Source: Anagrus nilaparvatae
Taxonomy: Eukaryota > Arthropoda > Insecta > Hymenoptera > Mymaridae
NCBI GenBank assembly: GCA_022575985.1
Contig: JAKSXM010000040.1
Location: forward strand, 12,480,001 to 12,544,000
DNA length: 64,000 nt
Direction of reading: 5' to 3'
The position numbers and the translations under genes are program-made. How positions within the stretch are numbered: the first letter of the stretch is position 1; each line of letters opens with the position of its first letter. Shown here in pieces: positions 902 through 49,531 of the stretch. The notes beneath the pieces were generated by a model. The model ran no database searches, was not told the DNA's origin, and saw only the letters and a program-made list of their open reading frames with translations.

Positions 902-1396
902 AATCATAAGGTATTTTAAGAATTAACTTTTAACTTTACAAGGGGTTTTTTAGGTCAAGAAATATGAATTTTCGATAGAAAATATTTAATTTTTTCTATT
1001 CAACATATTTTCTGATTTTCCAGATGGTTTCTACCGAAAAATCATAAACCCGTTCATTTTGCCAAGTATTTCGGTCCGCTATCTTGGAAAACCGGAAAAT
1101 ATGTTGGCTTGAAAAATTAAATGTTTTCGACAAAAAATTCATATTTATTGCCCTAAAAAACCCCCTTGTAAACTTAAAAGTTAATTTTTTTAAAGTTAAT
1201 GATTCTCCATCGGAAAATTTGTTGGGTTGAATAATTGAATAATTTCCACCCAAAATTCATGTTTTTTGCCGTTGTAATGTTAAAAAATCATTTTTTTAAG
1301 TTTCTATGTTCGCCATCTTGGAAAATCGGAAAATATTTTTTTGCCCTCCTGGGCGTAAAACTCGTGTGTAAAGAATTTTCTGAACTCGCTCTACGC

Positions 1397-1436
1397 CTAG
1401 CAATATGTGTTCACGAGCGTGAACACATATTGCTAG
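1397..1436. repeat. Perfect 19-bp-arm inverted repeat
   Basis: The left arm 1397-1415 (starting CTAGCAATATGTG) is the exact reverse complement of 1418-1436, with only 2 bases between them. It is far longer than expected by chance in this AT-rich context. It could be a transposon centre or a cruciform-forming site. No terminator or transposon ends are visible around it. Confidence 0.8.
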
Positions 1437-1960
1437 TGCCCAAACTTTTACGCCCTTGATACTTGATATACTATTTAATCCAAAATTAAAAATTTTATTC
1501 AAAAAAATGTTTTTCCAACCTCGAATACCCCCAGGTAATGTGAAAAGTACTTTTTTATTCATAAATATCGAAACTTTCAATATTAAAATTTAAAAAAAGT
1601 TGAATCAATGAGAAATCGATCTGTTTAAAAAAAAAAATTTATTAATTTTTGTTAACAATATAAATTTTGATGTTCTACTTCAAACACCATGATTACAACT
1701 GAAATTATTTTAACATTTGGTATATTACTAACGAAATTTAAGTATATAAAAAGCCTATATTTATAAAAATAAAAAATTAAAAAAAAAAAACTTCAGTTAT
1801 ATATGCTTCATATAACAAGTTAAAAGTTAATAAATATATAAAGTCAAGTGCTAAGTTGATGTTGATGTTTTTTGATTTTTTTTAAATTAATATTTGTGAA
1901 TAATATTTTTTAATTAACCTCAACTATATAAGTTTTTATACTAATAATAAATAAGCTGGT

Positions 1961-2161
1961 TGTTGTGTATATGTAAATACTGTATATATGTTGATGAGCT
2001 CCCCCCTTAATTTTATATGTATAACCGCTCCGAGCCTCAGTGCTCCGCCAGATCTCAAGCTAGTAATAGCTGTCAATAAAGTTATATTTTATATTTAATT
2101 AATTGAAACTATATCATTAATAATCACCATTACCATCACCATATCCATTAATTATCCATCA
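1961..2161 (+). repeat. 5' LTR of BEL element 1
   Basis: Matches 8832-9032 over 201 bp with about 5% divergence by eye. It contains an AATAAA polyadenylation signal (2076-2081) within the conserved block around 2030-2100. Confidence 0.92.
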
Positions 2162-2165
2162 ATTT

Positions 2166-2186
2166 TGGCATCCCAGGAATAGAACC
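2166..2186 (+). promoter_or_regulatory. Primer-binding site of BEL element 1
   Basis: TGGCATCCCAGG followed by AATAGAACC lies 4 bases after the 5' LTR. It is complementary to a tRNA 3' end of the form GGGATGCCA, and the complementarity appears to extend into a T-arm-like stretch. The same TGGCATCCC core lies next to the 5' LTR of BEL element 2. The tRNA itself was not identified. Confidence 0.75.
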
Positions 2187-2564
2187 TAAATTGAAAGAAG
2201 CAAATCAAGTATATTGTAAGATTTTTGAGAAAAGAAAAAATGTGCTTTAGAAAGAATTTCAAGATGGAGTATTAAAATTTGAATTTTGCGAAATTGAATA
2301 TTAATCAAGTGTGGTGTTATTTTGAAAAACTTTGTTTATAAGCGGTGCAAAAATAAGTTTATTTTAGTAAATTTATTAAAAATAATTTTTTTTTAAAAAT
2401 TAGCTTATAGTCATGACATTACTAAAATGACTTATATTGTGATTAGAAAAACTTGAGCAATTCAAAAATTGTCAAAAAAAAAAATAAAGTGAAGTGCTGA
2501 CAAAATATCAAAATTAAAAGAGTGACAGTATCCTTAGAAACTTTGAGAAAATTCATGCTAAAAT

Positions 2565-2595
<31 letters not shown>

Positions 2596-4253
2596 AGGTG
2601 ACGTCATTGCTAGAAAAAAGGAAGAATTTGCTGCGAATGTGTACCACCCCACCATAAAAAATTAAAACTCTTGCTTCATCATCAACATCTTTACTGGGTC
2701 GGCGCGCGAATTTCTTCATGTTTCTTCACCGTTCTACCGCCATTAGAGAGAAGCCCATCAATGTGCATGAAAGATAAAGAAGAGGGGACGAGTTCTTTAA
2801 AACATCATCGAAGCGGCAGACGACGAAGAAATTTACGCAACTACTTTCAATGATGGCAACCATGAGCTCAATCTTCAAGTTTTGTCGGCTGCTTACTTTT
2901 TAAAAGATGAGTGTTATTTCTATGTTTTTTACCATAAGTACACTTTTTTATTTTATTTTTTTTTATGATTAAAACTGATACTCTTAAAACTTATTATTAT
3001 TTTAAAGTATCTGCTTTGCAATTAATCAATTGTAGTAAATTAATTTTTTTTTCTGCTACATATTTATATAAGCAATTATTTAAATTAAAATGTAAAATAT
3101 TAAATTCCTTTATTTTTTTATATTGTTTAAAACTATTATATTTTAAAAAATAATTAATATATAAGGAGTAGGGAGCTCGTGAAAGTGTGTGAGTAAATTC
3201 TATCCATTTGGCATAAAACATTTACTTGGCAATTTTGTCCATTGTTTACATAAAAAAAACAAAACATAACCTATAAAATTAAAAATCTTTTTTGCTTTTT
3301 CAAAAAAAATTTAAAATCTTTTTTTGGTTATATTAAATAAAATTTATAATTTTTTTTCTTGTTGCTAACTTGTGTAAAATTAAATTTATTTTAAAAATTA
3401 TAAAATTATTATTTGAAAATTATTTTAAAAATTAAAATTGAGTAAATTTAAAATTTCTGACAGGTTATGTAAACTATTATTGTGTGTTGTTAAGCTATTA
3501 TTTTATTTGAGCATAGTCTAATTAATTTTGATGTTACCTAGGTTACAACATTGGCGTTTTTGGACTGGTGATCTGGATTTAATTTAAACTACTTGGCTGG
3601 ACCTCAACCGTTGGGGACTCTGATGATTCTTGACATTCCATTTGCTGCACAAACACAACATCAGGTCATAAGGAGGCTTTGGATAATCCAGGGTTGATTT
3701 TGCATCACCAGTTAAGCACATAAAGTTAACTTTCCTATTGTTGTAACCTTAGTTGATATTATTTGAACATTATATTTAAAATTATTTTATAGAAAAGCTA
3801 ATTATTAAATGCTCAAATGCACATTGTTTTTCTATTTGAATATATAATCTTGAATTAATTTAAAATCAATTTAAATACCTTGTACAAAATCAGACAATAG
3901 GCTTTAACTATTTCTCAAGTTGTAAATATAAGATAATTTTCTTTTTAAAATTGGATCATTGATAATTTTGTAAATACTTTAACTTTTTTGATTTACTAAT
4001 TTTAACTAGTTTTTAAATTGAGTTGATAATTGATTTTAATTTTCTTGTGTAATCGATGATTAGTTTTTTAAAGAGAAATTATTACACATTATCAGTGTTA
4101 TAATGTATCATCACGTGATTTCATAAAGTTTTTGTTTCAATAAACACTTGATTATAATTAACAGTCTGGGATATAATTGTGTATTTAAAAAATTATTTAA
4201 AATTAATGTCATTTTAGCTTCTCAAATATTTTAAAAATTATTAAATTGTAACA
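2187..4253 (+). other. Long untranslated leader of BEL element 1
   Basis: About 2 kb between primer site and gag with no credible ORF. It contains an A tract near 2562-2590 and a motif GATGTTACCTAGG (3530-3542) that is repeated in the internal region of non-autonomous element 4 (13478-13490), which suggests shared leader ancestry. It presumably carries packaging and translation signals; nothing more specific is visible. Confidence 0.6.
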
Positions 4254-20653: not shown

Positions 20654-21000
20654 TAACGATAAATCCTAAATTTCCTACATTTTATGATCCTAAATTCGAA
20701 TAGAAAATGTCTTATTTTATTTAATTAACGATAAACCCAAATGGATATTTTGTAACTATCAATTTTAATTAAAGAGAATATAAAATGTTTTATATTATTT
20801 ATTTATCGATAAACCAAAATTTATATTTTGTGACAATCAATTTTAATTAACGAGAATATAAAATGTTTTATTTTATTTATTTATCGATAAACCAAAATTT
20901 ATATTTTGTGACAATCAATTTTAATTAACGCGAATATAAAATGTTTTATTTCATTTATTTATCGATAAACCATGATTTCTACCATTTGTTTAAATAAATA
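20654..21000. repeat. 78-bp tandem repeat
   Basis: The unit TATCGATAAACC...ATATTTTGTGACAATCAATT...GAATATAAAATGTTTTAT recurs at exactly 78-bp spacing (20726, 20804, 20882, 20960), with a diverged unit from 20654. It lies just upstream of the hammerhead array. It is non-coding. Confidence 0.85.
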
Positions 21001-21468
21001 ATTAAAATTTTATTATTTTATTCGATAATCCTTAATTTTATAAATCCGTATTCAATTTATTCTAATTTAAGGTTATTTAAATGCCAGAAAGTGCAATTAT
21101 CGAAAATTTACAAATTAATACTAAAAATTTCAAGAAAATGCATGTTTGTATAATATAATAATAATTTAACAAACGTGGGCGATGAATTTGTAAATTCATT
21201 TAATACCATGTACTCGTAAAAAGGTCGATTATAAATATTATTGTTTAAGAATTACAAACGAGTAATAAAAATTATTAATTTTCATATATAGAGCTTGGAC
21301 CTAATAACGCTCTGAGTTATAACATTCAACTCGCATTTTAATAAATATATATATATAACATCATTTCTTATATACAGAACAGATGGCTAAAGCAATGTGA
21401 GTCGTCCTCACAAGTGCTAAAATCGCCATTTGTTAACTATATAAGAAAAATAAGGACGTGTTTACATC

Positions 21469-21542
21469 AGCGTCTGTAGCACATACACTAACACACACAG
21501 CTACACTGATGAGATCTATGTGTTAGTGTTGATCGAAACGCT
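21469..21542 (+). ncRNA. Type III hammerhead ribozyme, copy 1
   Basis: Stem III AGCGT (21469-21473) pairs with ACGCT (21538-21542). The cleavage site is after C21474 in GTC. Stem I is TGTAGC (21475-21480) with GCTACA (21500-21505). The core CTGATGA is 21506-21512. Stem II is GATC (21513-21516) with GATC (21531-21534). The core GAA is 21535-21537. All invariant core residues, the G10.1-C11.1 pair and the A15.1-U16.1 pair are present. The open helix is stem III, hence type III. Loops I (19 nt) and II (14 nt) share an 11-nt perfect complementarity. The ribozyme would cut its own RNA to 2',3'-cyclic-phosphate and 5'-OH ends. Confidence 0.92.
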
Positions 21543-21971
21543 AGGTACCTTCTGTACCGACATTTAAAAACCGCGTAAATTCAAATTTTTAAATAAGTTT
21601 AAAAATTCATCTAATGTCGCCGCTTTGTATGCCTTAATAAAAAAAGAGATGACGATAAGCATCCGCATATAAAAAGCGTGGGCGATGAATTTGTAAATTC
21701 ATTTAATACCATGTACTCGTAAAAAGGTCCATTATAAATATTATTGTTTAAGAATTACAAACGAGTAATAAAAATTATTAATTTTCATATATAGAGCTTG
21801 GACCTAATAACGCTCTGAGTTATAACATTCAACTCGCATTTTAATAAATATATATATATAACATCATTTCTTATATACAGAACAGATGGCTAAAGCAATG
21901 TGAGTCGTCCTCACAAGTGCTAAAATCGCCATTTGTTAACTATATAAGAAAAATAAGGACGTGTTTACATC

Positions 21972-22045
21972 AGCGTCTGTAGCACATACACTAACACACA
22001 CAGCTACACTGATGAGATCTATGTGTTAGTGTTGATCGAAACGCT
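21972..22045 (+). ncRNA. Type III hammerhead ribozyme, copy 2
   Basis: Identical to copy 1 over all stems, core and loops, displaced by exactly 503 bp; cleavage follows C21977. The two cleavage sites define the monomer 21475-21977. The third, partial unit (from 22181) ends before the ribozyme. Confidence 0.92.
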
Positions 22046-22265
22046 AGGTACCTTCTGTACCGACATTTAAAAACCGCGTAAATTCAAATTTTTAAATAAG
22101 TTTAAAAATTCATCTAATGTCGCCGCTTTGTATGCCTTAATAAAAAAAGAGATGACGATAAGCATCCGCATATAAAAAGCGTGGGCGATGAATTTGTAAA
22201 TTCATTTAATACCATGTACTCGTAAAAAGGTCGATTATAAATATTATTGTTTAATAATTTAACAA

Positions 22266-23529
22266 TATTCCATAATTTTATTTTCATTTTATTCTAAAGT
22301 TTTCATTTTTACTAGTTTTAAGTCACGGCGCGCTATTTTAGTTAAAATAGCAACAAATTTTACTTATATTTTATTTTAATCCGCTGATTTTGAGGCTAAT
22401 TTAACGATTAACCATGTTTTCAGCCACTAGGGGTCGCCTAAAGCTGATCTAGACAAAATTAATTATGAATTGTAATTTTAATTTCGTTTATATAAATAAC
22501 CGCCATTGCCTAACTTAACTTAACGGTATTCCATCTTAGGATCTAAATAATAATGGTTTAACCAAAATCCCGCAGACATCCTCTGGTCTGCGTGGCAAGC
22601 CAAAATCAGGACTCATTAACTTATACTTAACACAAATTTTAATTTTGGGTCCTATTTCTAACTTAAATTTTAAGACCTAACCGGAATGGGTATAGACGGT
22701 ATATGCTGTGTTGACTGGGTTTTTACTCGATTTTGAAAACCTGCATTATAATTCGCAATCACAATTTTATTATGGGGACGATAATCCCGGGAATCTTATT
22801 GCTGTAATAACACTAAGAACAGCTTTACACAATACCTGTTTTCAATTATTCATTTGATTTTTAAATAAATAATTGAATCAAATTCCCCCTTTTAATAATG
22901 TAATTTATAAATTTTTTATTTCCTTAATTGTGTAGTGTGAATTTCTGTGTGTAAATTAGTGTTTTATGTAATTATGTGTTATAAAAATGACAGTATTCAT
23001 GTTTAGTTTTTGTTTTGTGAGAAAGAATTTGTGAAATTCTTGTTCATAATTAATTAATTTATTTAAATCTTGAAGCCCCAAAAGTTCTACTTAGCCCTAA
23101 TTCCTAAAAATTTATGCGCTATTTCAGGTTTGCAGAGTAGTTCTACAGAATTTATGTCCAAGTCTTGCAGAATAAGTTACATATTAATATTTAGCAAGAC
23201 TTGGAGAAGTTTCATGTATTTCGGCAAACAGCGGAGCTCCAGGAGAAGCTATTTTCCAAGTTTAGGATCATTGCAAGAGCTAAAATTTGTAGTTTCCCAC
23301 CTATAAGCCAAACGGAATTGCATTTATTGTTTCTAACTTCCTAATAAAGTTCCTAAACCCAAGTTAAAGAAGCTTTTAAGTTATAATATCCAAAATTTGC
23401 CTTATTTTAAAATTTCACTAAAATATTTTGTACTTAAAGTACTGGAGTTTTGTTCCGCATGATTAAAGGCTAATTTAAACTTGTTTGCACTATTTTACTT
23501 ATTAAATAATTTTAGAATCTTAATAGAAA
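22266..23529. other. AT-rich non-coding stretch
   Basis: No supportable gene. The open frame at 23070-23306 starts from a non-ATG codon and has no recognised content; it spans a hairpin around AAGTCTTGC (23160-23202). This block and 41195-43170 are the two halves of the DNA into which BEL element 3 inserted. Confidence 0.4.
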
Positions 23530-26096: not shown

Positions 26097-27428
26097 TCAC
26101 TGTTTTTCCTCATCCAACACATCTAATAAAATTAACTTGTGTATTGGGCGTTTTAAAGTGGTTGATCCCGTCTTGAGAGTTACAACCCTCACCAAACCAT
26201 CAGGACCCTTGTGTACCCCGATAACTTTTGCTAACGGCCAATAAGAGGGGGGCATGGTCTCATCAGAGATCAACACCACATCATTTATTTCTATATTTTT
26301 TTTTTCTAATTGCCACTTGTGACGTTCCTGCAGAGTTTGCAGATACTCAGTGGACCATGATCGCCACCAGTCTTGTAATTTTTGCTGAATGAGCTTATAC
26401 CTATTTGAAAGGGGTATATTTTGATCCAGATAATTATTCTCTGGCAAAATATTATTGTTTGATTGTGTGAGCAGGAAAGCAGGGGTTAAAAATTTGTTAT
26501 CAGACGGATCGTCTTTTAAAGGTATGAGTGGTCGGGAATTGAGGCAAGCCTCAATCTGCTTTAGCAGAGTATTGAACTCTTCATAAGTAAGTAAATGGTT
26601 ACCTACTACTCTCCGAATATGGTGTTTCACGGACTTTACCGCTGCTTCCCAGATTCCCCCAAAATGAGGCGCTCCCGGAGAGTTAAACGTCCAGTTCGTA
26701 CCCTCGTTGGTAAGAGAACCCACAAGTTCCTGCATATAGACAGAAGATTCCATATACATTTCTTTGAGGATTCGATCTGCGCCAACAAAGGTAGTCCCTT
26801 GGTCGCTAAACAAACCGGAACATTGCCCTCGAGTTGCGGTAAATCTTCTAAAGGCAGCAATAAAATCCGGACTAGAATACCCAGTTACCAGCTCAAGATG
26901 GACGGCTTTGGTGGTCATACAGACGAACACTGCTATGTAAGCCTTGTACATGGTTTTATGAGAACCGCGACCTCTATACCTTAAAATTGAGAAGGGGCCA
27001 GCATAATCTACTCCACTAAAGCGAAACGGTTTATCTGGCATGATTACCCTTGATGCGGGAAGTATTCCCATCTTTTGTATAGAGAGATTGGAACCATAAC
27101 GACGACAAATATTACATTTATATACGCAGCTTCTAACCAAATTTCTAGCTTTCACTACCCAGAATTCCTGACGCAATGTAGATAAAGTTAGCCTAACTCC
27201 TCCGTGCAACATAGATTTATGACAATGCTCTACCAATAATTTTGAAAATTGACCTTGATATGGCAAGATCCATGGATGTTTTTGGTCATGATCCAACAAC
27301 GACCAATAAATCCTACCCCCTAATCTGAATAAATTTTGCTCAAGAAAAAGATCTAATCTTCTTAGATTTAAGTCTTGCATAGGTTTACCATTTTTTAGCA
27401 AAGAAATATCGACTTCAAAATAAGCTCT
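26097..27428 (-). pseudogene. BEL/Pao integrase and C-terminal tail (element 2)
   Basis: A long open frame of over 430 codons from 27401 to 26097, in the same frame as the upstream RNase H part but separated from it by TAG near 27427. Domains: H2C2 zinc region (HKSMLHGG, KCNICRRYG), DDE core with GVDYAGPF (Asp), FSDQGTTFVGA (Asp) and APHFGGIWEAAVK (Glu), then the DUF5641-like tail (NDVVLISDETMPPSYWPL, LKRPIHKLI). All key residues are present, so this part itself looks intact. It would catalyse cDNA insertion. Confidence 0.88.
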
Positions 27429-28733
27429 CTAAATGATAAATATCCAGAGTTTTTTAGCTCGGGTGATTTCCTCAATAGACACTAACTTCGGAAAACAACA
27501 ACGATACTTTACCAAAAACCAAGAGTTCTTAACTAAGTCAGATTGCTCTGACAAGTTCACTAATTTACTTCTCACCCTCAATAACAACTTATCTATAAAA
27601 CGAAGAACATATGAGGTTATTCGAAGAAGTTTTTTCAAAGATGAGTATTTATTAATCAAATCCCAAACTTGAACTTCACAACTTTGTTTTTTAGCAACGA
27701 CGTTACAATTTATTGCTGTAACATTTACTGACTTACTTTGAAATTCCATGAAATCGTCTCCAGATTTATCCAAAGTCACACCCCCATCCCACCAAAGAGA
27801 AAAGTCCTTTAGTTGCAAAGGTGGCAGGCCCCTAGAAATACAATCAGCTGGGTTGTCGTGCGTTCGAACATGGTTCCAATAAGCCTCAGGGATTAACGCA
27901 TGGATTTTAGAACATCTGTGAGCAACATACATTTCCCATTTAGATGGGTGGTCTTTAAGCCAATAAAGTACGTCTGTAGAATCCGTGAAAAGATAAATTC
28001 TTACAGTGTCCAATCTCAGAGCTTTGAGAACCTTAACCGATAATCTAGCTAGTAAAAGAGCCGCATTTAATTCCAGTCTTGGTATTGTTAAAAGTGGCTT
28101 AATAGGCGCAACTTTAGATTTAGCTTGGATTAAATGAACAGAACTAACACCATTATACGTAACCTTGAGGTATGTGCAGGCAGCATAAGCAAATTTTGAG
28201 GCATCTGCAAAACCAAAAAGCTCGTATTCTGCATTAGGAACATAGTTTAGCCATCTTTTGATTTTGATGTCCTTTACAGCTGATATATCATTGTGCCAAC
28301 TTAAGAATTCATCTCTCAAAGGGGGGGGTGACATTTCATCCCAGCCAATTTTCGCCAACCATAACTTCTGCATAAAAATTTTGGCAGTAATAATAACCGG
28401 AGCCAACCAACCTAGGGGGTCAAAAAATTTGGCTATGATAGAAAGCACCTTCCTCTTTGTGAGATCACCCTCAAGTTGATCAATAACTAGATCAAAGGTA
28501 AATTCATCAGAGTCTGGACACCAGTTTAGACCCAACAACCCGAAGCAAGAATTGGATTTGGGTGAAGCACATGCTGAGCTAGGAAAATTTAGCAACTTTT
28601 CATCATTAGCTGACCACTTATGGAGGGAGAAACCACCCACCTTGCAAATTCCCACTAAATCTTTTTGCTTATCTAAAGCTTCAGCTAATGTGTGGCCACC
28701 AGACAGTGTATCATCCATATATGTTTCCATATA
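27429..28733 (-). pseudogene. BEL/Pao RT C-terminal part and RNase H (element 2)
   Basis: Open from about 28730 to 27429. It begins METYMDDTLSGGH, which contains the RT catalytic YMDD, and continues with DPLGWLAPVIITAKI (RT thumb/connection), FADASKFAYAAC and LFTDSTDVLYWLKDHP (RNase H-like), NPADCISRGLPP, and the linker LLRITSYVLRF. The first 31 codons duplicate those at 29586-29494, because leader DNA was inserted here. It ends at a TAG that most likely arose from CAG. Confidence 0.88.
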
Positions 28734-28734
28734 T

Positions 28735-29488
28735 GTTGTATTTTTAAAGTATAACTTAAAATATCAAATTCAATATGTAAATCCTAGAAATTACCAGCCC
28801 AAACTGAAAGATTTATACAAAAATAAAGAAAAATTTATACTTAAGGTAACAAAAAAAAATAATTTAAGTTTAATCAAAAGTATTATGAAAAAATTAAAAA
28901 GAAAATCTTTCAAATTGTGCTAGAGAATTTTTAATGTGGCATTTTTCCCCAATGATTCAGTGAATCACCTCTATAAAATTAATTGGGTTATAATATAAAA
29001 AATATTTCGAAAGAAAGTTTATTAATCGTAAGACACAATGTATTTCGCAAAGGTCCTGAAGCCGGATAAAATCATCACCCCCAACTCTGGATCAACCACT
29101 TCAATTTGATAAAAAGGAAATAATATTTTATAATGACTATAGTTTGATAATTGGGTGACAAATAATACATAAAAGCTCTGATACGCAGTGAAATTTTAAA
29201 AATCAAAAAGAATTACAAAAAAAAATTTTATTAAAACAAAATAATTTTTATTTCACTTGCACGTATTTTTTTTTTTCATTTGATAGCAACTTTAAAGCAA
29301 AATTAATTAACAATTTTTATCAATTTATTAAAAAGAAAATGTTTTGACTTGATTAAATATCATGGATAAAAGATTAAATAATTTATAGTTTAATAGCTAA
29401 TCGTCAATTTTTACAAGATTATAAAGCAAACACAAAATAACATACACGCTCCTCTGAAAATTGTTACACATTAATACAATATAATTTT
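28735..29488. repeat. 754-bp leader copy inserted in RT of element 2
   Basis: Identical by eye to 32474-33227, the leader between the 5' LTR and gag of the same element. On either side the RT coding sequence is duplicated for 93 bp (28641-28733 and 29494-29586). Two to five filler bases sit at the joints. It breaks RT at YMDD. Confidence 0.9.
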
Positions 29489-30888
29489 GCAAACTTGCAA
29501 ATACCCACTAAATCTTTTTGCTTATCTAAAGCTTCAGCTAATGTGTGGCCACCAGACAGTGTATCATCCATATATGTTTCCATATTAAGAATGTCCACAG
29601 CCAAAGGAAAATTTCTCCCCTCATCAATGGCTAATTGCCTAATGACTCTATTTGCTAAATAAGGACTGCTTATCATACCATAAGTGACTGTATTAAGCGA
29701 CCATACTTGAATAGTTTTGTTTTGATCAGAACGCCACAAAATCTGCTGAAACTTTCGGTCATCTTCGTGGACTAGGATTTGCCTAAACATCTGCTCAATG
29801 TCAGATACAAAGACAAATCTATATTTCATCCAATTGATCAATAACTCAGCTAAGTCCGGAAGTAGCTTTGGCCCACAGTGTAATAAATTATTAATTGAAA
29901 CCTTATCATAGTCTCTAGCTGAACCATTGAACACTGAACGAAATTCGCCCGAAGAGCCGAGAATTCCGTGATGTGGAAGAAAATAGCAATCGATTTCTGG
30001 CAGAGGGGATTCAAGAAGCGACATATGACCTGTATCATCATAATTTTGCATAAATGCCTTATATGCTTGAGCGAACTTTTAGTCGTTTAGAAATTTAGCT
30101 TCCATCCTTTCCAAAACTCTCTTTGCATTTTGATGAGATCCTCTGAACTTCAAATTAACACTATCAGGATCTTTAAAAGCTAATCTTACCACGTAACGTC
30201 CATCAGAATTGCGATAAAAAGTTTTGGAGAAGAATTCTTCACAAGCTTGTTCGTCAGGAGTGAGTAACGATTTAGAAGAAACAGCGACCTCCTCCTGCTG
30301 CCAAAATCTTTCTAAATTGAATGATAGATTCTCTTCCTCTATTGGAAGATCAGTGGCCAATAAACAATTAAAACCTTTCCCTAAATTCCCAGAAATTATC
30401 CAACCTAACTTAGAATTTGTAGCAATCGGCTGAGAGTCTGAACCTCTACGATTTTGGCCCTCAATTAATGACGAATGTACAGTTGTACTTAGCAAAACGT
30501 CAATCTGTCCTCGCTCATTAAAATGTGGGTCAGCAAGCTCTAAGTCCGATAAGTAATCAAGATTTTTTATTTGGAAATTTACATTTGGTGAATATGAGGT
30601 AATTTTAGGTATGACAAACGCATCAATATTTACCACAAAATCTGAGAAAAAATGCGGCCTAATATCAAAATTTACTAATTGAGTAGAAGTTAACTCACTG
30701 TTGCCCCCGACGCCAGAGATTGGTAAAAAAGTTGATACTTTTGGAATTTTCAGCTTTTTAAGCAATGACCTACTTATGAAAGAGGCTTGAGAGCATTGAT
30801 CTATCAGTGCCCTAGCTAAGAAATCACAACCAAAACTATTTGATACTTTTATTACGGCTGTAGGCAACAACGAGCTATTAGCTAATTG
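29464..30888 (-). pseudogene. BEL/Pao protease and RT N-terminal part (element 2)
   Basis: From codon CAA 30888 after the gag TGA. It has the protease motif ARALIDQCSQASFIS, LPISGVGG and the conserved DLERFWQQEE linker, then a TAA near 30076. RT follows with LPHHGILGSSGEFRSVFNGS, FVSDIEQMFRQI (motif A Asp) and TYGMISSPYLANR, and the YMDD block before the leader insertion at 29488. The last eight residues come from the inserted leader. The TAA and the insertion inactivate RT; the rest is well conserved. Confidence 0.88.
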
Positions 30889-30891
30889 TCA
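30883..30891 (-). promoter_or_regulatory. Candidate stop-codon readthrough site, TGA CAA TTA
   Basis: The gag frame ends TCA TGA and continues CAA TTA in the same frame into protease. CAR-YYA immediately after a stop codon is the tobamovirus-type readthrough context. Element 1 has TGA AAA TTA at the homologous place (5656-5664). Confidence 0.55.
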
Positions 30892-32286
30892 TGATTGAGT
30901 GGCTAATGTTACTGTTTCTGTTACGGTAGGTTGGCTACTAGAACTAGGGTTATGTGTGTCATTGCTATCATTAGCTTTTACTGCTTTCTTATTTTTGTAA
31001 CCTTTTATATGTAATGAAGTGTGATGTTTTTTATGACAAGATTGACAAGTTTTTGTTGAGTTACATTGTGTTATAAAATGTGGCCCTAAGCAATTGTAAC
31101 ATCTTTTTAATTTACCCACCAATTCCTCTCTCTGTTTAGGTGTTTTATTCTTATATGTAGGGCAAAAGAGAAAGAAATGATTTGCATTGCAAATAATGCA
31201 TTCACTATTAGGTTTTTTAGAAATATTTGAACTATTATCCACATTAGCTTGAAAAACCTTTGCGGGCATTGTAGAGACATTAGCATTTTTGAATTTATTA
31301 TTATTTTCTGCAAATTGTTTAACATTAAAATTATTACTCGACTCTTCAATCGATTCAAATATGCTATTTTGAGTCTCTAAAAACTCTAATATGTGTTTTA
31401 ATTCAGGTGGCTCAGAACAAGACCTAACCGGACCATCATCATCATTTCGTACGGTAGCAGCAAACCTATTAAAATAATTACTATAAAAAATTTCCCACTG
31501 CCTTCTAGAATCCTGATCTAATAAAGATAATACATGATAGACTAATAAATCGTCCCATTGATCAACTGGCCTATTCAAACCCTTTAAAGCAGACATAGGG
31601 CTATTAATTCCAGTAAGGATCTTTTTTAATTCTGTTGCTGAGGATTTACTAATAGGTTTTAGGGAATAAATAGAAGAAATATGAGCATGTACCAAACGCT
31701 TTTTTATCTCATATTTTTCCTTCAGTTTGTCCCAAATAATTTTAAAATTAGCCTCAGTAGGCTGATATGAAGTGACTAACTTCTTAGCGTCACCCTCAAC
31801 AACAGATATGATTTGATGCAACTTTGCAATGTCTGAATAATTCGGTTTGTTAATTACCGAAGATGTGAACATGTCACGAAACGATTCCCAACATGTAAAA
31901 TCCCCATTAAAATGAGGAATGCTTAACGGAGGCAACCTTTCACCATCTAACGTAACAAATTGTCTAACTGGGGGGTGAGTATTATCATTACGTGATTCTA
32001 TTTGGGAATCTAAATAAGCTTGAAGTTTTGACAAATTTTTTATGTATGCTTGCTCATACGCCAAGAAGAGATTATCCTTTATATAAGGTTGAACCTTAAG
32101 AGTCTCATAATCCTCATGGTTAATTAGCTGCATGTGATTGCTTTCAAATTTTTCCCACGTTTTTTCAAGGGAATTCATCCTGATTTTACAAGACGAGATG
32201 GACATGCTGTCACCTTCTTTTTCAAAATAGGCAAACGCATTGTTAATACATGTGGACATACTCACTTGTTGATTAATAATATCCAT
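30889..32286 (-). CDS. BEL/Pao gag (element 2)
   Basis: A 465-codon intact gag starting at ATG 32286 (MDIINQQVSMSTCINNAF). The N-terminal two-thirds is the capsid-type region (FNGDFTCWESFRDMF, KLVTSYQPTEANF, DQWDDLLVYHVLSLL). The C-terminal zinc region reads CIICNANHFFLFC, CYNCLGPHFITQC, CQSCHKKHHTSLH. It ends at TGA 30889-30891, followed in frame by CAA TTA and then protease. It packages the element RNA into cytoplasmic particles. It is the best preserved gag in the window. Confidence 0.9.
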   Translation of the reverse strand: MDIINQQVSMSTCINNAFAYFEKEGDSMSISSCKIRMNSLEKTWEKFESNHMQLINHEDYETLKVQPYIKDNLFLAYEQAYIKNLSKLQAYLDSQIESRNDNTHPPVRQFVTLDGERLPPLSIPHFNGDFTCWESFRDMFTSSVINKPNYSDIAKLHQIISVVEGDAKKLVTSYQPTEANFKIIWDKLKEKYEIKKRLVHAHISSIYSLKPISKSSATELKKILTGINSPMSALKGLNRPVDQWDDLLVYHVLSLLDQDSRRQWEIFYSNYFNRFAATVRNDDDGPVRSCSEPPELKHILEFLETQNSIFESIEESSNNFNVKQFAENNNKFKNANVSTMPAKVFQANVDNSSNISKKPNSECIICNANHFFLFCPTYKNKTPKQREELVGKLKRCYNCLGPHFITQCNSTKTCQSCHKKHHTSLHIKGYKNKKAVKANDSNDTHNPSSSSQPTVTETVTLATQS

Positions 32287-34555: not shown

Positions 34556-35457
34556 TTTTTGTCGTTTGTAAATTTTAAATGTCATTCAATATTATAAAAA
34601 AAAAAATAAAGCATTTTTTTCATAAAACTCTTTACTAAGAATTCTTGATGTTCCTAAGGTACTCATTTGGATGTTGCTGTTCTTGGCCTTCATGTCCTTG
34701 TCAGATTGAACTGTCTCAAGTGGATTAGCAGCTGTGATTTCAACCAAATCAACATCAATTTTCCATTCGTTGGAGTTCTGGGTACATCTAGATCCTGGAG
34801 TAGTGTCATTGGTCTTAAATTCTCAAATTTTCCAGTATTTATATAAACTTAAGAATTTTTGTAAATTACTTTAATATTTGTAATATTTTTTTGAATATTC
34901 TATGTACAATTATTTCAAATCTTTTTTTTGCTACATGTTATATAGCTTTTATTATATTATTAATTATTTATTTGTATAATTCAATTTCATGTTCTTGTTC
35001 AAAGATCCAATTAATTCAATTATTTATGTTACTATTAAAATTATTTAGTCTAATGTTTAATCTCAAAATTTAAATTAATTAATTGTTTATCTTGATACAA
35101 GAACTCTAATTAATTTTCTAATTTTTGATTTAATAATTGTTCATCAATTTTAATTGATTTAAAACAATTTGGTTAAATTAAGTTACCATAAATTTAATTG
35201 TTTTAAACATGTACTTTTATGTTTATATTTTTGTTCCACTCTTTATATTGATGTGCAATTTATTTTTTCTCTATATTTTAAGAAATTTTCTTTTTAATTT
35301 CAATTCAAATTATATACTAATGGTCAAATAACTATAATTAAAAAAAAAAAAAATTTTTTAAATTTAATTAAATATTATATTTAAAAAAAATAATAAATAT
35401 TAAAACATTGAAATTAGAATTTTGCACATCAATATATATATAAGTATTTGGACGACC
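34556..35457 (+). other. Leader of BEL element 3, part 2
   Basis: Continuation of the element 3 leader after the nested insertion. GATGTTCCTAAGG (34650) parallels the GATGTTACCTAGG motif of elements 1 and 4. No ORF is credible. Confidence 0.55.
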
Positions 35458-36876
35458 ATGGCTAACACAATCTTGGAGCAAACCTCCCTCATACCAAAAA
35501 TTAAAAAAGCCTTTCAGGTCTTTGATGAGGATTCTGAAAAAAGTGTGTCGTCATGTAGAGTGAGAATGACTGCCCCAATAAAAAATTGGCAAAGATTTGA
35601 AAGTAACCATCATCTAATATTTAATGCCGAGGATTTAGAAACCTTAATGACCACTCATTCTTATTTTTTGGATAAAGTTTATGACGAAGTGGATGAACAA
35701 CACTTAGTCAACCTTAGTCTGTTCCAAACTTACTTGGATAGTCATCCTCACTCTGATGACCATACACCAAACCCACAAATTGTCCAAACCATATCCCATA
35801 ACCCTGAAGATCTGGAACGATTACCTCGTCTTGATCTTCCAGACTTCAGTGGAGACTTTAAAGATTGGGAATCTTTCCGTGATGTATTCAATTCAACAGT
35901 AGTGTCCAAACCTCGTATTCCCAACATAACTAAATTGCGTCATCTTAGGGCCCATTTAAAAGGAGATGCATCAGATTTAGTCAGCAGCTTTGCTCTGACT
36001 GATGAAAATTTTCCTTTGGTTTGGGAAACATTAAAAATGCGGTATGAAAGTAAAAAGCGTTTGATCAACTCTCATGTTGCAGCTATTTTTGCGATACCTC
36101 CTATGGTTACAGCGAGCGCAGTAGATTTTAAAAAAATCTTAGTAAATTTAAAAACCCCTTTAGCTGCACTAAAGGTCTTAGGTCGCCCTGTTGATACGTG
36201 GGATGATTGGTTAATTTTTCATACCATTTCATTATTTGACACTGACACCAAAAGGCAATGGGAACTTTACCTGTGCAACTTATCATTCTCTAATCATACT
36301 CAAAATACACTTTCTACAACTGATAACAACACAATAAATTCTCATGTTAATTTCAATACAGAACCTCCAACTTTTAAAATATTATTACAATTTTTAGAAT
36401 CTCAGTTTGGAATGTTAGAATCTATTGAGGAAAACAATTTTGCCAATAAAAATAATCAATCAAGCTCAAATTTCAATATTAATAGCTCAAATCAAAATAA
36501 ATCTAAAAATACAAATGTCGTTACTCAACCTCAAGTCAAGGTATTTCATACCCTAGTAAATTCTAAAAACAATAATAATAATAAAATCGAATGTCTAATG
36601 TGTAAAGGAAACCATAAAATTAAGAATTGCAGTAATTACAAGAAATTAATACCTGCTAAAAGGTATGATTTTATAAAATCAATACCAAGGTGTTGTAATT
36701 GCCTTGGCAACCACCTTTATACAAAATGCACATCTAAAGAACTGTGCAATATATGTAAAAAGAAACATCATACATCTTTGCATGATAATTATGATAATTA
36801 TGATAATTATTTGATGATAATTATGTTAGTAGGTTTCAAAGACAAAGGCCTCAAAATACTAATAATTCCAGTCTGA
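35458..36876 (+). pseudogene. BEL/Pao gag (element 3)
   Basis: Start ATG 35458 in the context GACCATGG opens MANTILEQTSLIPKIKKAF, matching the other gags. The frame opens upstream at 35422, but homology starts at 35458. Capsid-type blocks (LDLPDFSGDFKDWESFRDVF, DTWDDWLIFHTISLF) are followed by an Asn-rich spacer and the zinc region (CLMCKGNHKIKNC, CCNCLGNHLYTKC, CNICKKKHHTSLH). A GATAATTAT microsatellite at 36783-36810 shifts the frame, so the last ~25 codons are out of frame. After the shift the frame runs straight into protease without the TGA seen in elements 1 and 2. Confidence 0.87.
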
Positions 36877-37958
36877 ATTCAACACAAAACTTAACTCACA
36901 ATACAAACAATGCTAATTCTTCTGAAACTGAAGCAAGTACCTCAACTAGCTCTCTTGTTACCTCAATTAAATTATGTGACACTCCTTCTCAAACATTATT
37001 ATCAACAGCAGTAGTTAAAATAATTAATGAAAATGGTTATGAATTATACGCAAGGACTTTAGTCGATCAAGCTTCACAGGCTTCTTTCATAAGCCAGTCT
37101 TTATTTAAACGAATGTGCACTAATCATTCCTCTAAAAAATTGCCAATTTCAGGAGTAGGCGGTAAAAATGATTATACATGTAAAAAAATCGTCCAATTTC
37201 AAATAAAACCCCGATTTATGTCAGATTTTTCTTTGATGATCGAAGCATATGTTTTGCCTAAAATTTCTTCTTATGCCCCAACGACCAGTTCTGAAACTGA
37301 AAATTTGAAGCATATTGCCGGCTTAACTCTTGCTGATGCAGGATTTTGCAGACGGGGTCAAATTGAAATTTTACTCAGTACTTCAGTCCACGCCGCCATT
37401 GTCGAGGAGGAGGTGAGACGAGGTGCTCATAATGATCCTATAGCTACAAAGACAAAGTTAGGTTATATTATCTCTGATAATACTGTTATAGGATCAAATT
37501 GTTGTCTTTCTGTTTGTGATGAGCCTGAATCTTCACTTTCTTTCGATTTGGAGCGGTTCTGGAGGCAGGAGGAAATTTTGGATTCGTCTTCTCGTATGCT
37601 TAATCCGGATGAGCAAGAGTGCGAAAACCATTTTAAATCAACTCACTTCAGAAACGCTGATGGTAGATATGTTGTAAGGCTCCCATTCAAAATTACTGAT
37701 ATTGAAAATTTACAGTTTCCTGGTTCGTATGCCTTAGCAAAAAATGTGCTTTTAAGAATGGAGAAGCGCTTCGCAAGCGACCCATCCTTTCACAAGCTTT
37801 ATACAGATTTTATGGCAGACTACAGCGAAACTGGTCATATGTCAAAAACTACTGTCTTTTTAATGTTTTTATTTTGTTATTCTATTCCCCACCATGGAAT
37901 CTTAAAAAAGATTAGTTTACTCAAAAAATTAAGAACAGTATTTAACATTTGTATCTGA
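36815..37958 (+). pseudogene. BEL/Pao protease and RT start (element 3)
   Basis: Frame 3, continuing gag after the microsatellite shift. Protease motif RTLVDQASQASFISQSL, with DQA where D-S/T-G would stand. Then LPISGVGG, RRGQIEILLSTSVHA, FDLERFWRQEE, DGRYVVRLPF and the RT start SIPHHGIL. About 45 codons of the RT fingers (present in element 2 after FRSVFNGS) are lost before 37958. Confidence 0.85.
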
Positions 37959-40797
37959 CATCAAACAGATGTTCCGTCAAATATTAATACATGAGGATGA
38001 TCGCAAATTTCAACAAATCCTTTGGCGTTTTAAGCCAACTGATGAAATTTCACCTTATTCGCTAAATACGGTGACGTATGGTGTAATAAGCAGCCCCTTC
38101 TTAGCTAATAGGGTAATGAGGCAATTAGCCCTTGATGAAGGAGATAAATATCCTCTCGCTGCCCCTATCTTAACTTCTGAAACCTACATGGATGACGCAC
38201 TGTCGGGTGGTCATTCATTACCTGAAGCTTTAAAAAAGCAAAATGAATGAATAAATATCTGCAAAACAGCAGGTTTTAGTTTGCCTAAATGGATTGCTAA
38301 TGACAAACTATTATTAAATTTTCCCCGATCTGATTTAGCTGATTCTGACGCTACAAATGACTGTTTCTCGTTATTGGGTGTATGCTATAATCCCTCTGAG
38401 GATTACTTTTCTTTTAAAATTAGATTAGATGAATTTAAAAAACCCATTACCAAGCGAATGGTCGTTTCTAGCATTTCCAAACTTTTTGATCCTTTAGGCT
38501 GGTTAGCCCCAGTTATTATAACCGCTAAAGTCATTATACAGAAAATGTGGCTTGCAAAGTTGCAATGGGAAGATGTCTTACCCGATGACTTGAACACAGA
38601 GTTTTTAGATTGGTACAACGGCTTGCCTGTTTTAAATAAATTAAAAGTACCTAGATGGCTAGGTTATATTACAGACGCAAAGTATGAGATTTCCGGTTTT
38701 GCAGACGCGTCAAAAATAGCGTACGCAGCTTGTGCCTATCTAAAAATCACAGTTAATGGTCAAAGTACGATACGCTTACTACAAGGGAAGTCAAAAGTAT
38801 CCCCTATCAAACCATTGTTAACTATACCTAAATTAGAGCTTAGCGCTGCTTTCCTGTTGTCTAAATTAACCGTTAAGGTCTTAAAGTCATTGAGATTGCC
38901 TTCTGTCAATATATATTTGTTTACTGATTCAATTGACGTTCTCTTTTGGCTCAAAGAGCATCCTTTAAAATGGCCAATTTTTATAGCAAATAAATGTTCT
39001 CAAATACATTCTTTAGTGCCTACTGCATTTTGGAGTCATGTTCGGTCAAAGGAGAACTCAGCTGATTGTGTTTCCAGAGGCATCCCTCCTGAGCAATTAA
39101 TTAGCTTTAATTTGTGGTGGGAAGGTAACGCAGAAATCCAAGGTGATTTTAAATTTATTCGCGATAACAATAATTTTCATACAAGTTCTCTCGCAACCTT
39201 AGGTTGTTCTGTTAGTCAACAAAAACAAAAAAATAAAATAATTAAAACTTGGGATTTGTTAAATAAATTTTCAAATGTTCGTAAATTATTTAGAGTTACG
39301 TCTTATGTATTGCGTTTTGTATGTAATGTTTTGTCTAAATTAAAGAATAATTTCATTAAAAAATCAAAATTACTTAATTGCAATTGGTTCGATATAAATA
39401 GAAAAACTTGTTTACCTTTTGTCAATTATTTTGAATTAAATAGGGCTAAATTACTATGGGTATATATAGTCCAAATGTCTTATTTCAAAAAAGAAATAAA
39501 TTTACTTAACAACAATTGCAAATTTACTAAGTCAAGGTTAATTAAATTGGCCCCTTTTTTAGACAATGGTTTGTTAAGGTTAGGCGGTAGAATTCATTTC
39601 TCTTTGCTTAGTTATGAGCAACAACATCCTTTAATTCTCCCCTATGATTCCAGACTTTCTAAATTACTAGTAGAGTATTTTCATCATAAAATACTTCATG
39701 GTGGTATACGTTTAACTCTTTCAACAGTAAGGTAGGAGTTTTGGATTATTAAGAGACGAAGTCTAGTTAAATCAATTATATATAAATGCTTAGATTGCAT
39801 TAGATATCGTGGCACAACGTCTGTGCAAAAAATGGGCATTCTACCTTATTCTCGAGTTGAAAAACCCGACAAGCCATTTCGTCTAACAGGTGTAGATTAT
39901 GCGGGGCCATATAAAATTTTAAGATATAAGGGCCGTGGGGCTCAAACTTATAAAGCCTACATTTGTGTATTTGTTTGTACGGCAACTAAGGCCATTCATT
40001 TATGACTTGTCACAGGCTATACAAGTGACGACTTCATAGCCGCTTTCAGGCGATTCACCTCAACTCGTGGACCGTGCTCAGGTTTGTTCAGTGACCAGGG
40101 TACTACCTTCATAGGTGCGGATAAAACCCTGAGGGAAATGTATATGGCCTCTTCAGGTTATATGCAGGACCTTCTGGGAAAGTTAGCCGATAAGGGTACA
40201 GACTGGTCATTTAACTCTCCTGCTGCTCCACACACTGGGGGGATCTGGGAATCAGCGGTTAAGTCCGTCAAGCATCACCTTCGTAGGGTAATGGGGGACC
40301 GTACACTTACGTTTGAAGAATTTTACACTCTTCTAAAACAAGTAGAGTCCTGTCTCAATTCGAGGCCCCTCATTCCTTTGACTGATGATCCGTCAGATCA
40401 TCAATTTTTATGTCCCTCGCTTCTGTTGACACAATCTAACTCTTACATCATACCCGAACCCAACTATCTAAATCAAAATATTCCTCCTACTCAAAGATAA
40501 AAATTAATTCAAGCCATGTTACAAGATTGGTGGCGGACATGGTCCTCTGATTACTTACAAACTCTGCAAGAGCGAAGTAAGTGGTCGGAGGAAGTAAGGA
40601 ATATTGAGATCGATGACGTTGTTCTGGTGACGGATGAGACTTTGCCTCCTAGTAAGTGGCCTTTAGGTCGAATTTTAAAAACTTTTAAAGTACCTGACAA
40701 TCTGACAAGGATTGTGGAGGTCAGGACCTGCACCTCTGTGTTGAGAAGGCCCATACAAAAATTAATATTATTAAAAACAAATAATGAATTAAAAAAT
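37959..40797 (+). pseudogene. BEL/Pao RT, RNase H, integrase and tail (element 3)
   Basis: A single frame interrupted by stops at 38248 (TGA), 39733 (TAG), 40003 (TGA) and 40498 (TAA), each probably one substitution. Order: RT motif A (FVSDIKQMFRQIL, opening just upstream of 37969), TYGVISSPFLANR, ETYMDDALSGGH, DPLGWLAPVIITAK; RNase H (GFADASKIAYAAC, LFTDSIDVLFWLKEHP); H2C2 (HHKILHGG, KCLDCIRY); DDE core (GVDYAGP, FSDQGTTFIGAD, GGIWESAVK); and the tail IDDVVLVTDETLPPSKWPL. All catalytic residues survive apart from the stops. Confidence 0.88.
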
Positions 40798-43610: not shown

Positions 43611-44534
43611 TTTTAAATAAGTGCATCAGAACTTTAAGTGCCTATTGTCAAGGTCAGTGCCGGCGAAAATAGGAAAATTGATAAAAAACAATAATTTGAT
43701 CATTTTGTGCTGTGTAATATTTTCACAGACTTTTAAGTAAAATATCCATTGTTAATGTGACGAACTTTATGCAGATAATTAGTGTAAGTAGTGCCTTATT
43801 ACTTTGAAACCGAGTGACAACGTTTTTCTTTTATTGCGCAATTATATTATCAATATAGAAAATTAATATAAATATTTTTTTAATTTCAATAAAAACGTAC
43901 TTATTATTTAATAACAAAAAAATATAATAATTTTAAACAAGAAAATATTTTTTTTAATTAAGTTACATATTTTGTTACATAATATTACTAAAGTTATTAA
44001 GTAAGCATTGGAGGATTAGAGGACCATCAAATTTCAAGTTTAAACGACACTATCTACTCGAAAGTAGGTCGATTGAGGAGACGTAGAGTGTTTCAATCTC
44101 CTTTCTTTTTCTATAAAATAACCGGCGTATTTCGTGCGCAACACCCGCATGCTTTGTTATATACAGTGGGGTTTAGATCAGCTAGCGCTTTGAAATAGTA
44201 TATGTTGGATACTATACTTTTACGGTATATATATATACACCAGCTATTCTGAAACACATTATGTATAGTTGTATTTTTATATACATACATATATATACGA
44301 GATCCTTGTACACAAAGCCTCGCGTAAGAAATTTAATGGTTCTAATATAATTTATATATATATATATATATATAATTATCACAAGATTATAAATTTTGCT
44401 TTATGTAAAACTAAAAATAATATTATAGTTTTAGATTTAATAATAATATTAATATTAATGATTTTGGCCTTTTAAAGAAGTAATAGATAGGGAAAATAAT
44501 AAAATATTAGTAGATATTGTTTTATAACATTTAG
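43611..44534. other. Possible gypsy leader; AT-rich
   Basis: No gene. Includes (TA)n at 44348-44373. The frame at 44269-44475 is built on the microsatellite and is not called. Confidence 0.4.
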
Positions 44535-44538
44535 AAAT

Positions 44539-45919
44539 CACGGTGACCTGGAAGCGTTTTATTATTCGATCAAAATGACAAAAAAACCGTATAGTGGGGT
44601 GTTTTCTACACTAAAAAATGTCTACGAATTTCCTATCCGGACCTTCTATCCAGCTGCTATAAGAATTTGCTGTCAATATTTTCATATTTTCAATATTGTC
44701 TTAATTTTATAAAAGATTTTCTTAAAATTATGATCCTGAAAAACGATAAAATTCGATTTTTCTCATATAAGACGTGGTCGAATTTCTGGGGAAAAAATAT
44801 ACAAGATACTCTTGTAAATAATATTCAGAAAAACATATTTTGAAAACTGATAACCTTTTATAATGGATTTCCTCAAAATTGGGACCCTGAAATACGACAA
44901 AAATCGATTTTTCTCATATAAGAGGTAATCAAAAGCGAAAATAAATGGTTTCATCGGATTCCTGGGGAAAAAATACATAAGTATCTTTAATACATAATAT
45001 TTAGGAAATTTTATTTTATAAACTAATAAACTTTTTTGATTTTTTTCCTTAAAATTGGGACCCTAAAACACGAAAAAAAATTGACTTTTCTCATATAAGA
45101 GGTAGTCAAAAGCTAAAATAAATGGTTTCATCGGATTCCTGGGGAAAAAGTATACAAGACCTTCTTTTAAATAATAATCAGAAAAACTTATTTTGAAAAC
45201 TGACAACTTTTTATAATAGGTTTCCTTAAAATTGGGACCCTAAAAACCATTAAAATCGATTTTTCTCCTATAAAACGTGGTCAAAAGCTAAAATAAATGG
45301 TTCAATCGAATTCTTAGGGAAAAAATAGACAAGTCCCTCTTGTTAATAATATACAGAAAAATTTATTCTGAAAACTACAAAACTTTTAAAATTGGTCCAC
45401 TTGAAATTTGGACCCTAAAAGGTAACGAAAATCGATTTTCCTCCTATAAAACGTGGTCAAAAACTAAAATAAATGGTTTCATCGGATTCCTGGGGAAAAA
45501 ATATTGAAGTATATCAATTGGAACATAATTTTAAACGTAATTTTAATCCCCTGGAAAAACTGAAAGTTTTAAGAAAATCCCAATTTTAAGGAAGCCAAAA
45601 AAAAAAACTTTCGAGAGCTATCGTGGGCTCAAAAATCAATGTTTTGGTCTAAATCTAACGAGAAACTTATTTTTTTTACTTATATTTCCGAGTTCTGCGA
45701 ATTAGGAATCCCGTATACTTGGAAAAAAAAGCCAGTCTTATAAAAAAATTCAAATCATCATTATTCAAATTATGAAAATATTGACAGCAAACGCTTAAAG
45801 TAGCTGGATAGAAGGTCCGGATAGAAAATTCGTAGACATTTTTTAGTGTAGAAAAGACTCTAAGATACAGTTTTTTTTGTCATTTTGATCGCATAATAAA
45901 ACGCTTCCAGGTCACCGTG
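44539..45919. mobile_element. Non-autonomous DNA transposon with Transib-like ends
   Basis: Terminal inverted repeats of about 150 bp (44539-44690 and 45770-45919) start CACGGTGACCTGGAAGCG and include TCTATCCGGACCTTCTATCC. AAAT flanks both ends (44535-44538, 45920-45923). The terminal heptamer CACGGTG resembles Transib/RSS heptamers. The interior is a ~176-bp tandem repeat and has no transposase. Confidence 0.75.
44700..45560. repeat. ~176-bp tandem repeat x 5 inside the transposon
   Basis: Units carry CGATTTTTCTC-TATAA, GGTTTCATCGGATTCCTGGG and AAATTGGGACCCT. The CTC-TATAA motif recurs near 44761, 44912, 45089, 45264 and 45440. The first unit is about 25 bp shorter. Confidence 0.8.
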
Positions 45920-45965
45920 AAATTGTTGGTTAAGATAGGAATTGTAATGATTTAAAATATATATA

Positions 45966-49511: not shown

Positions 49512-49531
49512 TCCATTCTTAAAGGTTACTT

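Follow-up and report, generated by a model that had tools for sequence, protein, structure and literature searches.

Hammerhead-bearing tandem repeats in the Anagrus nilaparvatae genome were found to form insertions, most of them of two divergent arms inside a single target-site duplication (TSD), with the outer end of one arm at one fixed site of the repeat unit and that of the other arm at a second fixed site. We consider it very probable that this is a non-autonomous retrotransposon of the retrozyme kind, whose circular RNA would be copied from both ends of the cut target by a reverse transcriptase (RT) of the Penelope-like element (PLE) type. One copy lies in the window, the whole 64,000-nt stretch that was analysed.

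The copy in the window

As the preliminary description had it, the array in the window consists of 2.15 head-to-tail copies of a 503-nt unit (Table 1). The unit has 31% GC. Compared at a period of 503, 580 of 584 positions within 21174–22260 agreed, and the sole internal mismatch between units was G21227 / C21730 / G22233. The array was absent from the output of Tandem Repeats Finder, where the longest period reported was 500. The direct repeat TAATAATTTAACAA flanks it, exact over 14 nt. At the left junction 2 nt of it, and at the right junction 3 nt, also fit the unit, so that 12 bp is a reasonable lower estimate for the TSD; the duplication claimed earlier is present, but its length of 12 bp is that lower estimate and not the extent of the exact repeat. 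Also upheld were the statements that the insertion ends lie away from the cleavage site and that reverse transcription went more than once round, for which a circular template is the simplest reading. The near-identity of the units is real; taken at first as a sign of recent activity, it is explained by copying from one template rather than by youth in itself.

The unit has no coding capacity, as in retrozymes: the longest stop-to-stop frame round the 503-nt circle is 47 codons on either strand, with room neither for an RT and GIY-YIG endonuclease frame nor for the delta antigen frame that would mark an HDV-like agent. The circular fold of the unit was 4.7 standard deviations below 60 shuffles and that of its complement 4.3, so the stability is not strand-specific.

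Other elements were noted in the window. Pieces of two BEL/Pao retrotransposons lie in opposite orientation at 26097–32286 (minus strand) and 35422–40500 (plus strand); both hold Pao peptidase and DUF1759 domains, and the first also has RT and integrase-type domains. A copia-type element at 46476–50719 (minus strand) has pol in a frame of 1011 aa and gag in one of 395 aa. Its best named relatives, about 53% alike, are in bees, with others in butterflies, a beetle and a wasp.

Table 1. Features of the retrozyme insertion and of a related target sequence, in window coordinates
Feature	Position	Strand	Basis and remarks
Target-site duplication, left copy, TAATAATTTAACAA	21159..21172	.	14 nt at most
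Retrozyme insertion with a single (plus) arm, 2.15 turns of the 503-nt circle	21173..22254	+	period comparison, junction reading
Full 503-nt unit 1, from the 5' junction	21174..21676	+	period 503
Type III hammerhead, copy 1	21469..21542	+	RF00008 33.4 bits, below cut-off; predicted cut 21474/21475
Loop I partner in the predicted pairing between the two loops	21485..21495	+	coordinates counted by hand
Loop II partner in the predicted pairing between the two loops	21519..21529	+	coordinates counted by hand
Full 503-nt unit 2	21677..22179	+	period 503
Predicted hairpin TACTCGT (21714-21720) / ACGAGTA (21761-21767) around site A	21714..21767	+	coordinates counted by hand
Priming site A	21742..21751	+	circle ~268-277; accepted range 262-284
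Priming site B	21779..21789	+	circle ~305-315; accepted range 303-322
Type III hammerhead, copy 2	21972..22045	+	RF00008 33.4 bits, below cut-off; predicted cut 21977/21978
Partial unit 3, ending at priming site A	22180..22254	+	period 503, junction reading
Target-site duplication, right copy	22252..22265	.	exact repeat of left copy
Uninterrupted relative of the L010 target, one copy of its 13-nt TSD (12/13 nt same)	45767..45779	-	satellite; coordinates counted by hand

Copies in the genome

A genome search for other copies with the unit as query, proposed in the preliminary description, was run on the window's own assembly (488.7 Mb, 393 contigs). It gave at least 253 matches, a lower bound and a best-scoring sample because 40 of 621 candidates were scored. 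All clusters among the matches listed were fetched (L009–L045) and, together with the window, make up a first-subfamily sample of 38 rows or 37 independent loci, L044 being L028 on another contig. A second subfamily, at 87–89% identity, was recovered with a more diverged copy as query. It was sampled at eight places (L049–L056), of which seven are independent, L056 being taken as L051 (mirror-image flanks); the sample leaves out the listed places C196:13760615 and C378:27560. Unit length is 503 nt in the first subfamily and 501 nt in the second.

Plasmids yielded no DNA similar to the unit, and viral contigs no match to the exact pattern. A looser hammerhead pattern matched 2 prokaryote MAG contigs and 16 viral contigs, none of the 18 matching the unit at E 0.01 (best E 2.5).

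Two-armed insertions and their target sites

Pieces of at least 60 nt were counted as arms, setting aside smaller extra pieces in L018, L023, L037 and L042. On this count the left arm is minus and the right arm plus in 29 of the 37 first-subfamily loci. The reverse arrangement did not occur, and 8 loci, the window included, have one arm only; the one-armed tandem of the window is thus the minority form among the loci read. L023 holds its two arms twice through local duplication. Six of the seven second-subfamily loci are two-armed, all divergent. Arms span from about 0.15 to about 15 turns of the unit.

Exact direct repeats of at least 11 nt enclose 26 of the 37 loci, and in 23 of the 37 the repeat is at least 13 nt (13–15); 11 loci are without an exact repeat of at least 11 nt. 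When left and right flanks were mispaired as a control, repeats of at least 11 nt were found in 9 of 435 pairings and repeats of at least 13 nt in 0 of 435. TSD length was scorable in 28 of the 38 rows (L028 and L044 being one insertion): 9 bp in two, 11 in one, 12 in two, 13 in thirteen, 14 in six and 15 in four, with the mode at 13 bp. Twenty-five of the exact repeats have an A+T content of 86%, the flanks one of 73%. In the second subfamily a TSD was found only in L049 and L054; L050 and L052, whose flanks were available, gave none, and the remaining stretches are truncated or likewise yielded none.

A target without the insertion was found in related form. The flanks of L010 are satellite, and the window holds an uninterrupted version of its target, which is a related repeat and not the allele (Table 1). 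Around this place, at 44534–45920, lies a satellite of about 176 bp, and a related satellite elsewhere is the target of L010. A second empty-site comparison, of L009 with L023, aligned poorly exactly at the target. The preliminary description had named an outcome that would speak against mobility, the same flanks round a satellite at all loci; this does not hold, because the loci are dispersed with TSDs of their own and an uninterrupted relative of a target exists.

Where the two arms meet, the inner junctions show overlaps of 1–10 nt, are blunt, or carry 2–23 extra bases. On a circle numbered from the predicted cut, the inner ends of the two arms mostly differ (52 and 223 in L009, 476 and 72 in L012), being near each other in a few loci (205 and 214 in L021). 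Since the inner ends usually differ, the arms are not the product of a fold-back.

Two start sites

The outer ends fall at two places on the circle, site A (about 275) and site B (about 313), some 38 nt apart on the RNA. Of the independent loci that have two arms and a scorable TSD, 25 in all, 22 have one arm ending at A and the other at B. The exceptions are L017, with B at both ends (a poor fit), and L028 and L042, in each of which one end lies outside A and B. Two one-armed insertions, the window copy and L026, have a scorable TSD, and both end at A. These counts drop L044 and leave out the 10 of 38 rows without a scorable TSD. By our own arithmetic, at least 22 unlike pairs out of 23 would arise about three times in a million if each end chose independently and equally between A and B. 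In the second subfamily L049 and L054 are likewise A/B, with 14-nt repeats, though the A/B stretch is only 78% alike between subfamilies.

Target and unit share short microhomology at the junctions, with a mean of 2.1 nt at 43 outer junctions against 0.49 at random places; this set includes L044 and excludes junctions whose adjoining bases did not fit. Site A lies within a predicted hairpin, in which one U-A pair has become A-U, a compensatory change, between the subfamilies. Folded alone, the A/B stretch was no more stable than its shuffles (z -0.51).

In PLEs a single TSD encloses the inverted arms and just one of the two ends carries a tail; 22 of the 25 scorable two-armed loci have this form. 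Two divergent arms with two fixed start sites point to Penelope-like machinery.

A probable single template per insertion

Thirteen private variants, each seen at one locus of the sample, occur in every arm there and in at least 80% of that locus's units overall, while multi-unit private variants confined to one arm numbered two (in L035 and L036). Counts by arm were 15/15 and 2/2 in L020, 3/3 and 8/8 in L021, 8/8, 5/5 and 1/1 in L015, and 2/3 and 5/5 in L039; several such cases rest on one or two units per arm. The analysis leaves out L044, L042 (poor alignment) and positions 262–322, the junction zone. Such sharing is what one monomer circle copied repeatedly from both ends would give. The cut site is unmarked by any variant common to a whole locus.

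The hammerhead ribozyme

Both full copies in the window matched the Rfam model Hammerhead_3 (RF00008) with 33.4 bits (E 6.1e-5) and with the core residues present when the stretch 20900–22500 was searched, in agreement with the type III hammerheads, complete in core and stems, that were claimed for each full copy. The whole-window Rfam scan at curated cut-off (48.5 for RF00008) listed nothing; the lower score is likely due to the long loops. Read from the sequence, stem III is AGCGU/ACGCU (5 bp), stem I UGUAGC/GCUACA (6 bp) and stem II GAUC/GAUC (4 bp), with the core CUGAUGA and GAAA in each full copy and with III as the open helix. Self-cleavage is predicted after C21474 and C21977. An RF00008 search of the genome, in which 68 of 40,753 candidates were scored, gave no match and also missed the window's own two motifs, so that it is silent on copy number.

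Absent from the preliminary description is a complementarity of 11 nt between loop I and loop II, a length of at least 11 being reached by 257 of 200,000 composition shuffles. Folded alone, the hammerhead stretch preferred a nested helix of the two loop strands over stems I and II. The pairing could dock the loops or could switch the ribozyme off.

The two subfamily units are 89% alike, with no change in the core, in stems II and III or in loop II. In stem I, A4-U28 has become G4-C28 and G2-C30 has become G-U, with every pair kept; L020, a first-subfamily array, carries an intermediate G-U. Across the unit 126 consensus pairs are predicted; 117 of them are the same in both sequences, 6 have changed on one side, 3 show compensatory change and none is broken, a count that excludes gapped pairs and is favoured by the structure having been fitted to the same two sequences. 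By a pattern test that judges stem bases singly and would pass an A4-C28 mismatch, core and stems are intact in 145 of the 178 units that bear a hammerhead, and one or more intact units are present in 38 of 45 rows; the 45 rows include both L051 and L056, taken as one insertion. Within the first subfamily, template-borne variants were not depleted at the 41 essential ribozyme positions, where 3 of 31 template-borne variants fell as against 18 of 184 later ones (p = 1). What evidence the sequences offer for conservation of the ribozyme comes from the comparison with the second subfamily and not from variants within the first.

One locus runs counter to this. L036 (C317:1828800-1836200) has AAAA for GAAA in all 7 hammerheads of both arms and is otherwise usual, with two arms and a 13-bp TSD. 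A change from GAAA to AAAA in the core is expected to kill a hammerhead. The ribozyme of L036 is thus presumably dead, which counts against a circle made by self-cleavage. A rearrangement of loop I was noted in 7 of 9 units of L050 (C342:18937600-18943200), in both arms; the altered loop could pair with stem I.

Penelope-like elements

In the genome, L034 (C337:6981800-6986900) holds at 1017–3100 a retrozyme of 2.2 turns. Its site-A end runs straight into a 5'-truncated element with an RT motif and a GIY-YIG endonuclease (Pfam scores below the curated cut-offs), motifs that we take to be those of a PLE. The junction may have formed when reverse transcription switched from PLE RNA to the retrozyme at site A, or through a rearrangement afterwards. 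On the other side lies sequence that by eye resembles a C2H2 zinc finger.

With the PLE endonuclease piece as query, at least 150 matches were found (150 of 2287 candidates scored), three of them in frames of 846–893 aa, the 893-aa family being that of L047. Neighbouring endonuclease matches less than 6 kb apart were divergent in 13 cases, convergent in none and tandem in 2. L075 has two PLE arms, 99.8% alike, whose ends are 52 nt apart on the PLE sequence, inside a 12-bp TSD; of the three divergent PLE loci fetched (L075–L077) it alone gave clear ends, L076 and L077 giving none. In a separate comparison with three PLE loci, the unit had no convincing sequence match (best 24 nt, E 0.005). The PLE hammerheads of this genome are of the minimal PLE kind, unlike that of the retrozyme; by published descriptions of PLEs they are taken to be type I.

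The only sequence shared between the unit and PLE tails is a short motif, noticed after the fact, which serves as no more than a lead. CTTGGAC, with TATATAG shortly before it, occurs in L047 (1397–1413), in L048 (minus strand) and in the unit at about circle position 323, just after site B. The occurrences in L047 and L048 are close to the start sites of a single PLE family; a related CTTGGATAC was found in a second one. It is possible that CTTGGAC is a protein-binding element common to PLE and retrozyme.

Published work on PLEs offers a close parallel. A lizard PLE protein is described as starting reverse transcription inside the RNA at two adjacent sites and extending both strands, with a preference for AT-rich DNA; the stretch between the two sites is the 30–40 bp tail known at PLE ends (PMC11167929). 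Rotifer PLE insertions have tandem and inverted terminal copies in one TSD, with the tail on one inverted end (PMC3846280). In the in vitro work, as far as the available text goes, the two strands showed no difference in start site, and the start site was not homologous to the cut DNA (PMC11167929), whereas the retrozyme mostly uses one site per arm; this rule and the short microhomology go beyond that assay or differ from it.

Proposed mechanism and alternatives

The sequences themselves show how the insertions are built, where they start, their polarity and the variants they share, and from these we infer cleavage, a 503-nt circle, a PLE helper and an order of events as follows. Transcripts of an array would cut themselves at the hammerheads into 503-nt monomers, which would be ligated into circles. 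A Penelope-like RT/endonuclease would bind the circle near the A/B hairpin and cut AT-rich DNA with a stagger of about 13 nt. The 3' end of one target strand would then prime cDNA at A and that of the other strand at B, on the same circle, and both cDNAs would run round it for part of one turn or for several (0.15–15). End joining, with short microhomology or a few filler bases, would unite them in the centre, and filling in of the stagger would produce the target duplication. The window copy would be a case in which the A end alone was extended. Opinion could fall evenly either way on a further proposal, that a dimer of PLE-type RT, one subunit per strand and dividing A and B between them, copies one circle simultaneously from the two ends of the target break, and that this is the normal way of PLEs too.

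Priming at two sites on two strands might instead use long linear multimeric transcripts of an array, the ribozyme being irrelevant to templating. We regard this as unlikely. L036, whose template presumably had a dead ribozyme, speaks for it, as does the finding that insertion in vitro can proceed without the PLE hammerhead (PMC11167929). Linear multimers would, however, require each donor array to be uniform already if private variants are to be common to both arms; nor do they sit well with arms of about 15 turns or with a hammerhead stem kept by compensatory change between subfamilies. Mobilisation by a LINE, through ordinary target-primed reverse transcription with L1-like twin priming, is quite unlikely. 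LINE TSDs are of lengths compatible with those found here, so that TSD length alone would allow it, and a 532-aa frame in L041 is LINE-like by eye, but LINEs prime at the 3' end of their RNA and a circle has no 3' end. PLE copies in this genome also have the same divergent form, and LINEs are not known to have two fixed internal start sites. L1 twin priming does yield inverted, truncated insertions with TSDs (PMC2837659); two fixed internal starts, mostly one per arm, match the tail signature of PLEs instead.

It is highly improbable that the inverted arms came not from two primings but from one cDNA that folded back on itself, or from an inversion at a later time. Fold-back synthesis commonly gives inverted repeats, but these arms are not mirror images, their inner ends differ, their outer ends lie at two different fixed sites, and the TSD, where scorable, encloses both. 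An ordinary satellite with a chance hammerhead-like motif, spread by recombination, would also be tandem, AT-rich and homogeneous within an array; it is contradicted by locus-specific TSDs, the uninterrupted related target, fixed ends and constant arm polarity, and we give it almost no credence. Copying of a circle from both target ends by PLE-type machinery remains the preferred reading.

Relation to known elements

In the general sense this would be a retrozyme: it has a hammerhead in each unit, dispersed insertions with TSDs (26 of 37 loci) and no coding capacity, and its multi-turn arrays are indirect evidence for a circular RNA. With the metazoan non-LTR retrozymes it shares non-coding tandem hammerhead units, low GC and TSDs of more than 4 bp, and a circular template is proposed for those too (PMC7229834). 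They are described, however, as type I, with RNAs of about 170–400 nt, whereas the hammerhead here is type III and the unit, read from DNA, 503 or 501 nt; because hammerhead type and size differ, the family falls outside the metazoan retrozymes as described in 2020. The available text of that paper does not mention divergent two-arm insertions with two fixed starts, nor does the word 'inverted' occur in it (PMC7229834). Plant LTR retrozymes likewise have a type III hammerhead, dimeric units and a circle intermediate, but also LTRs, a primer-binding site, a polypurine tract and 4-bp TSDs (PMC4918200); with TSDs of about 13 bp, this element is not one of them.

The insertions have in common with PLEs the tandem and inverted copies in one TSD, the tail of about 30–40 bp on one inverted end, the two adjacent internal RT starts, the extension of both target strands and the AT-rich targets (PMC3846280, PMC11167929). 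PLEs differ in encoding an RT and a GIY-YIG endonuclease and in having minimal type I hammerheads, the retrozyme being non-coding and type III. From its sequences, then, the element looks retrozyme-like in its working and moved as PLEs are.

The ribozyme type is not new to insects, since type III hammerheads with loop pairing have been reported there (PMC7936874). Those insect hammerheads, and those of termite and toad HDV-like RNAs, share with ours the type III topology, long helices or loops and a Watson-Crick contact between loops I and II, but their stems and loops differ in length and sequence, and the termite genomic ones are isolated motifs without a described repeat or insertion structure (PMC7936874). 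Related motifs are mentioned for dipteran genomes, with a fuller account in preparation (PMC7936874), and work in preparation on type III hammerheads in insects is announced (PMC7761336, PMC7936874), so an animal type III retrozyme may already be known to others. Within the accessible portion of the open-licence PMC literature, no retrozyme with divergent arms and no type III animal retrozyme was reported; judged by that literature, what seems new is the set of mapped insertions and the two-site rule.

In published retrozyme work, as far as its available text goes, the helper enzyme is left open, with LINEs or PLEs named as possible helpers and PLEs as a strong candidate (PMC7229834), and the circular template is a proposal; dozens of insertions now bear on both questions. 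The family places a type III hammerhead in an animal retrozyme-like element with mapped insertions, and the tie it makes between retrozymes and Penelope-like machinery is one of mechanism, not of co-occurrence. It also suggests a rule of one site per strand that is not seen in the published in vitro work. If true, rolling-circle dual priming would explain both the puzzling tandem, inverted and tailed termini of PLEs and the movement of animal retrozymes.
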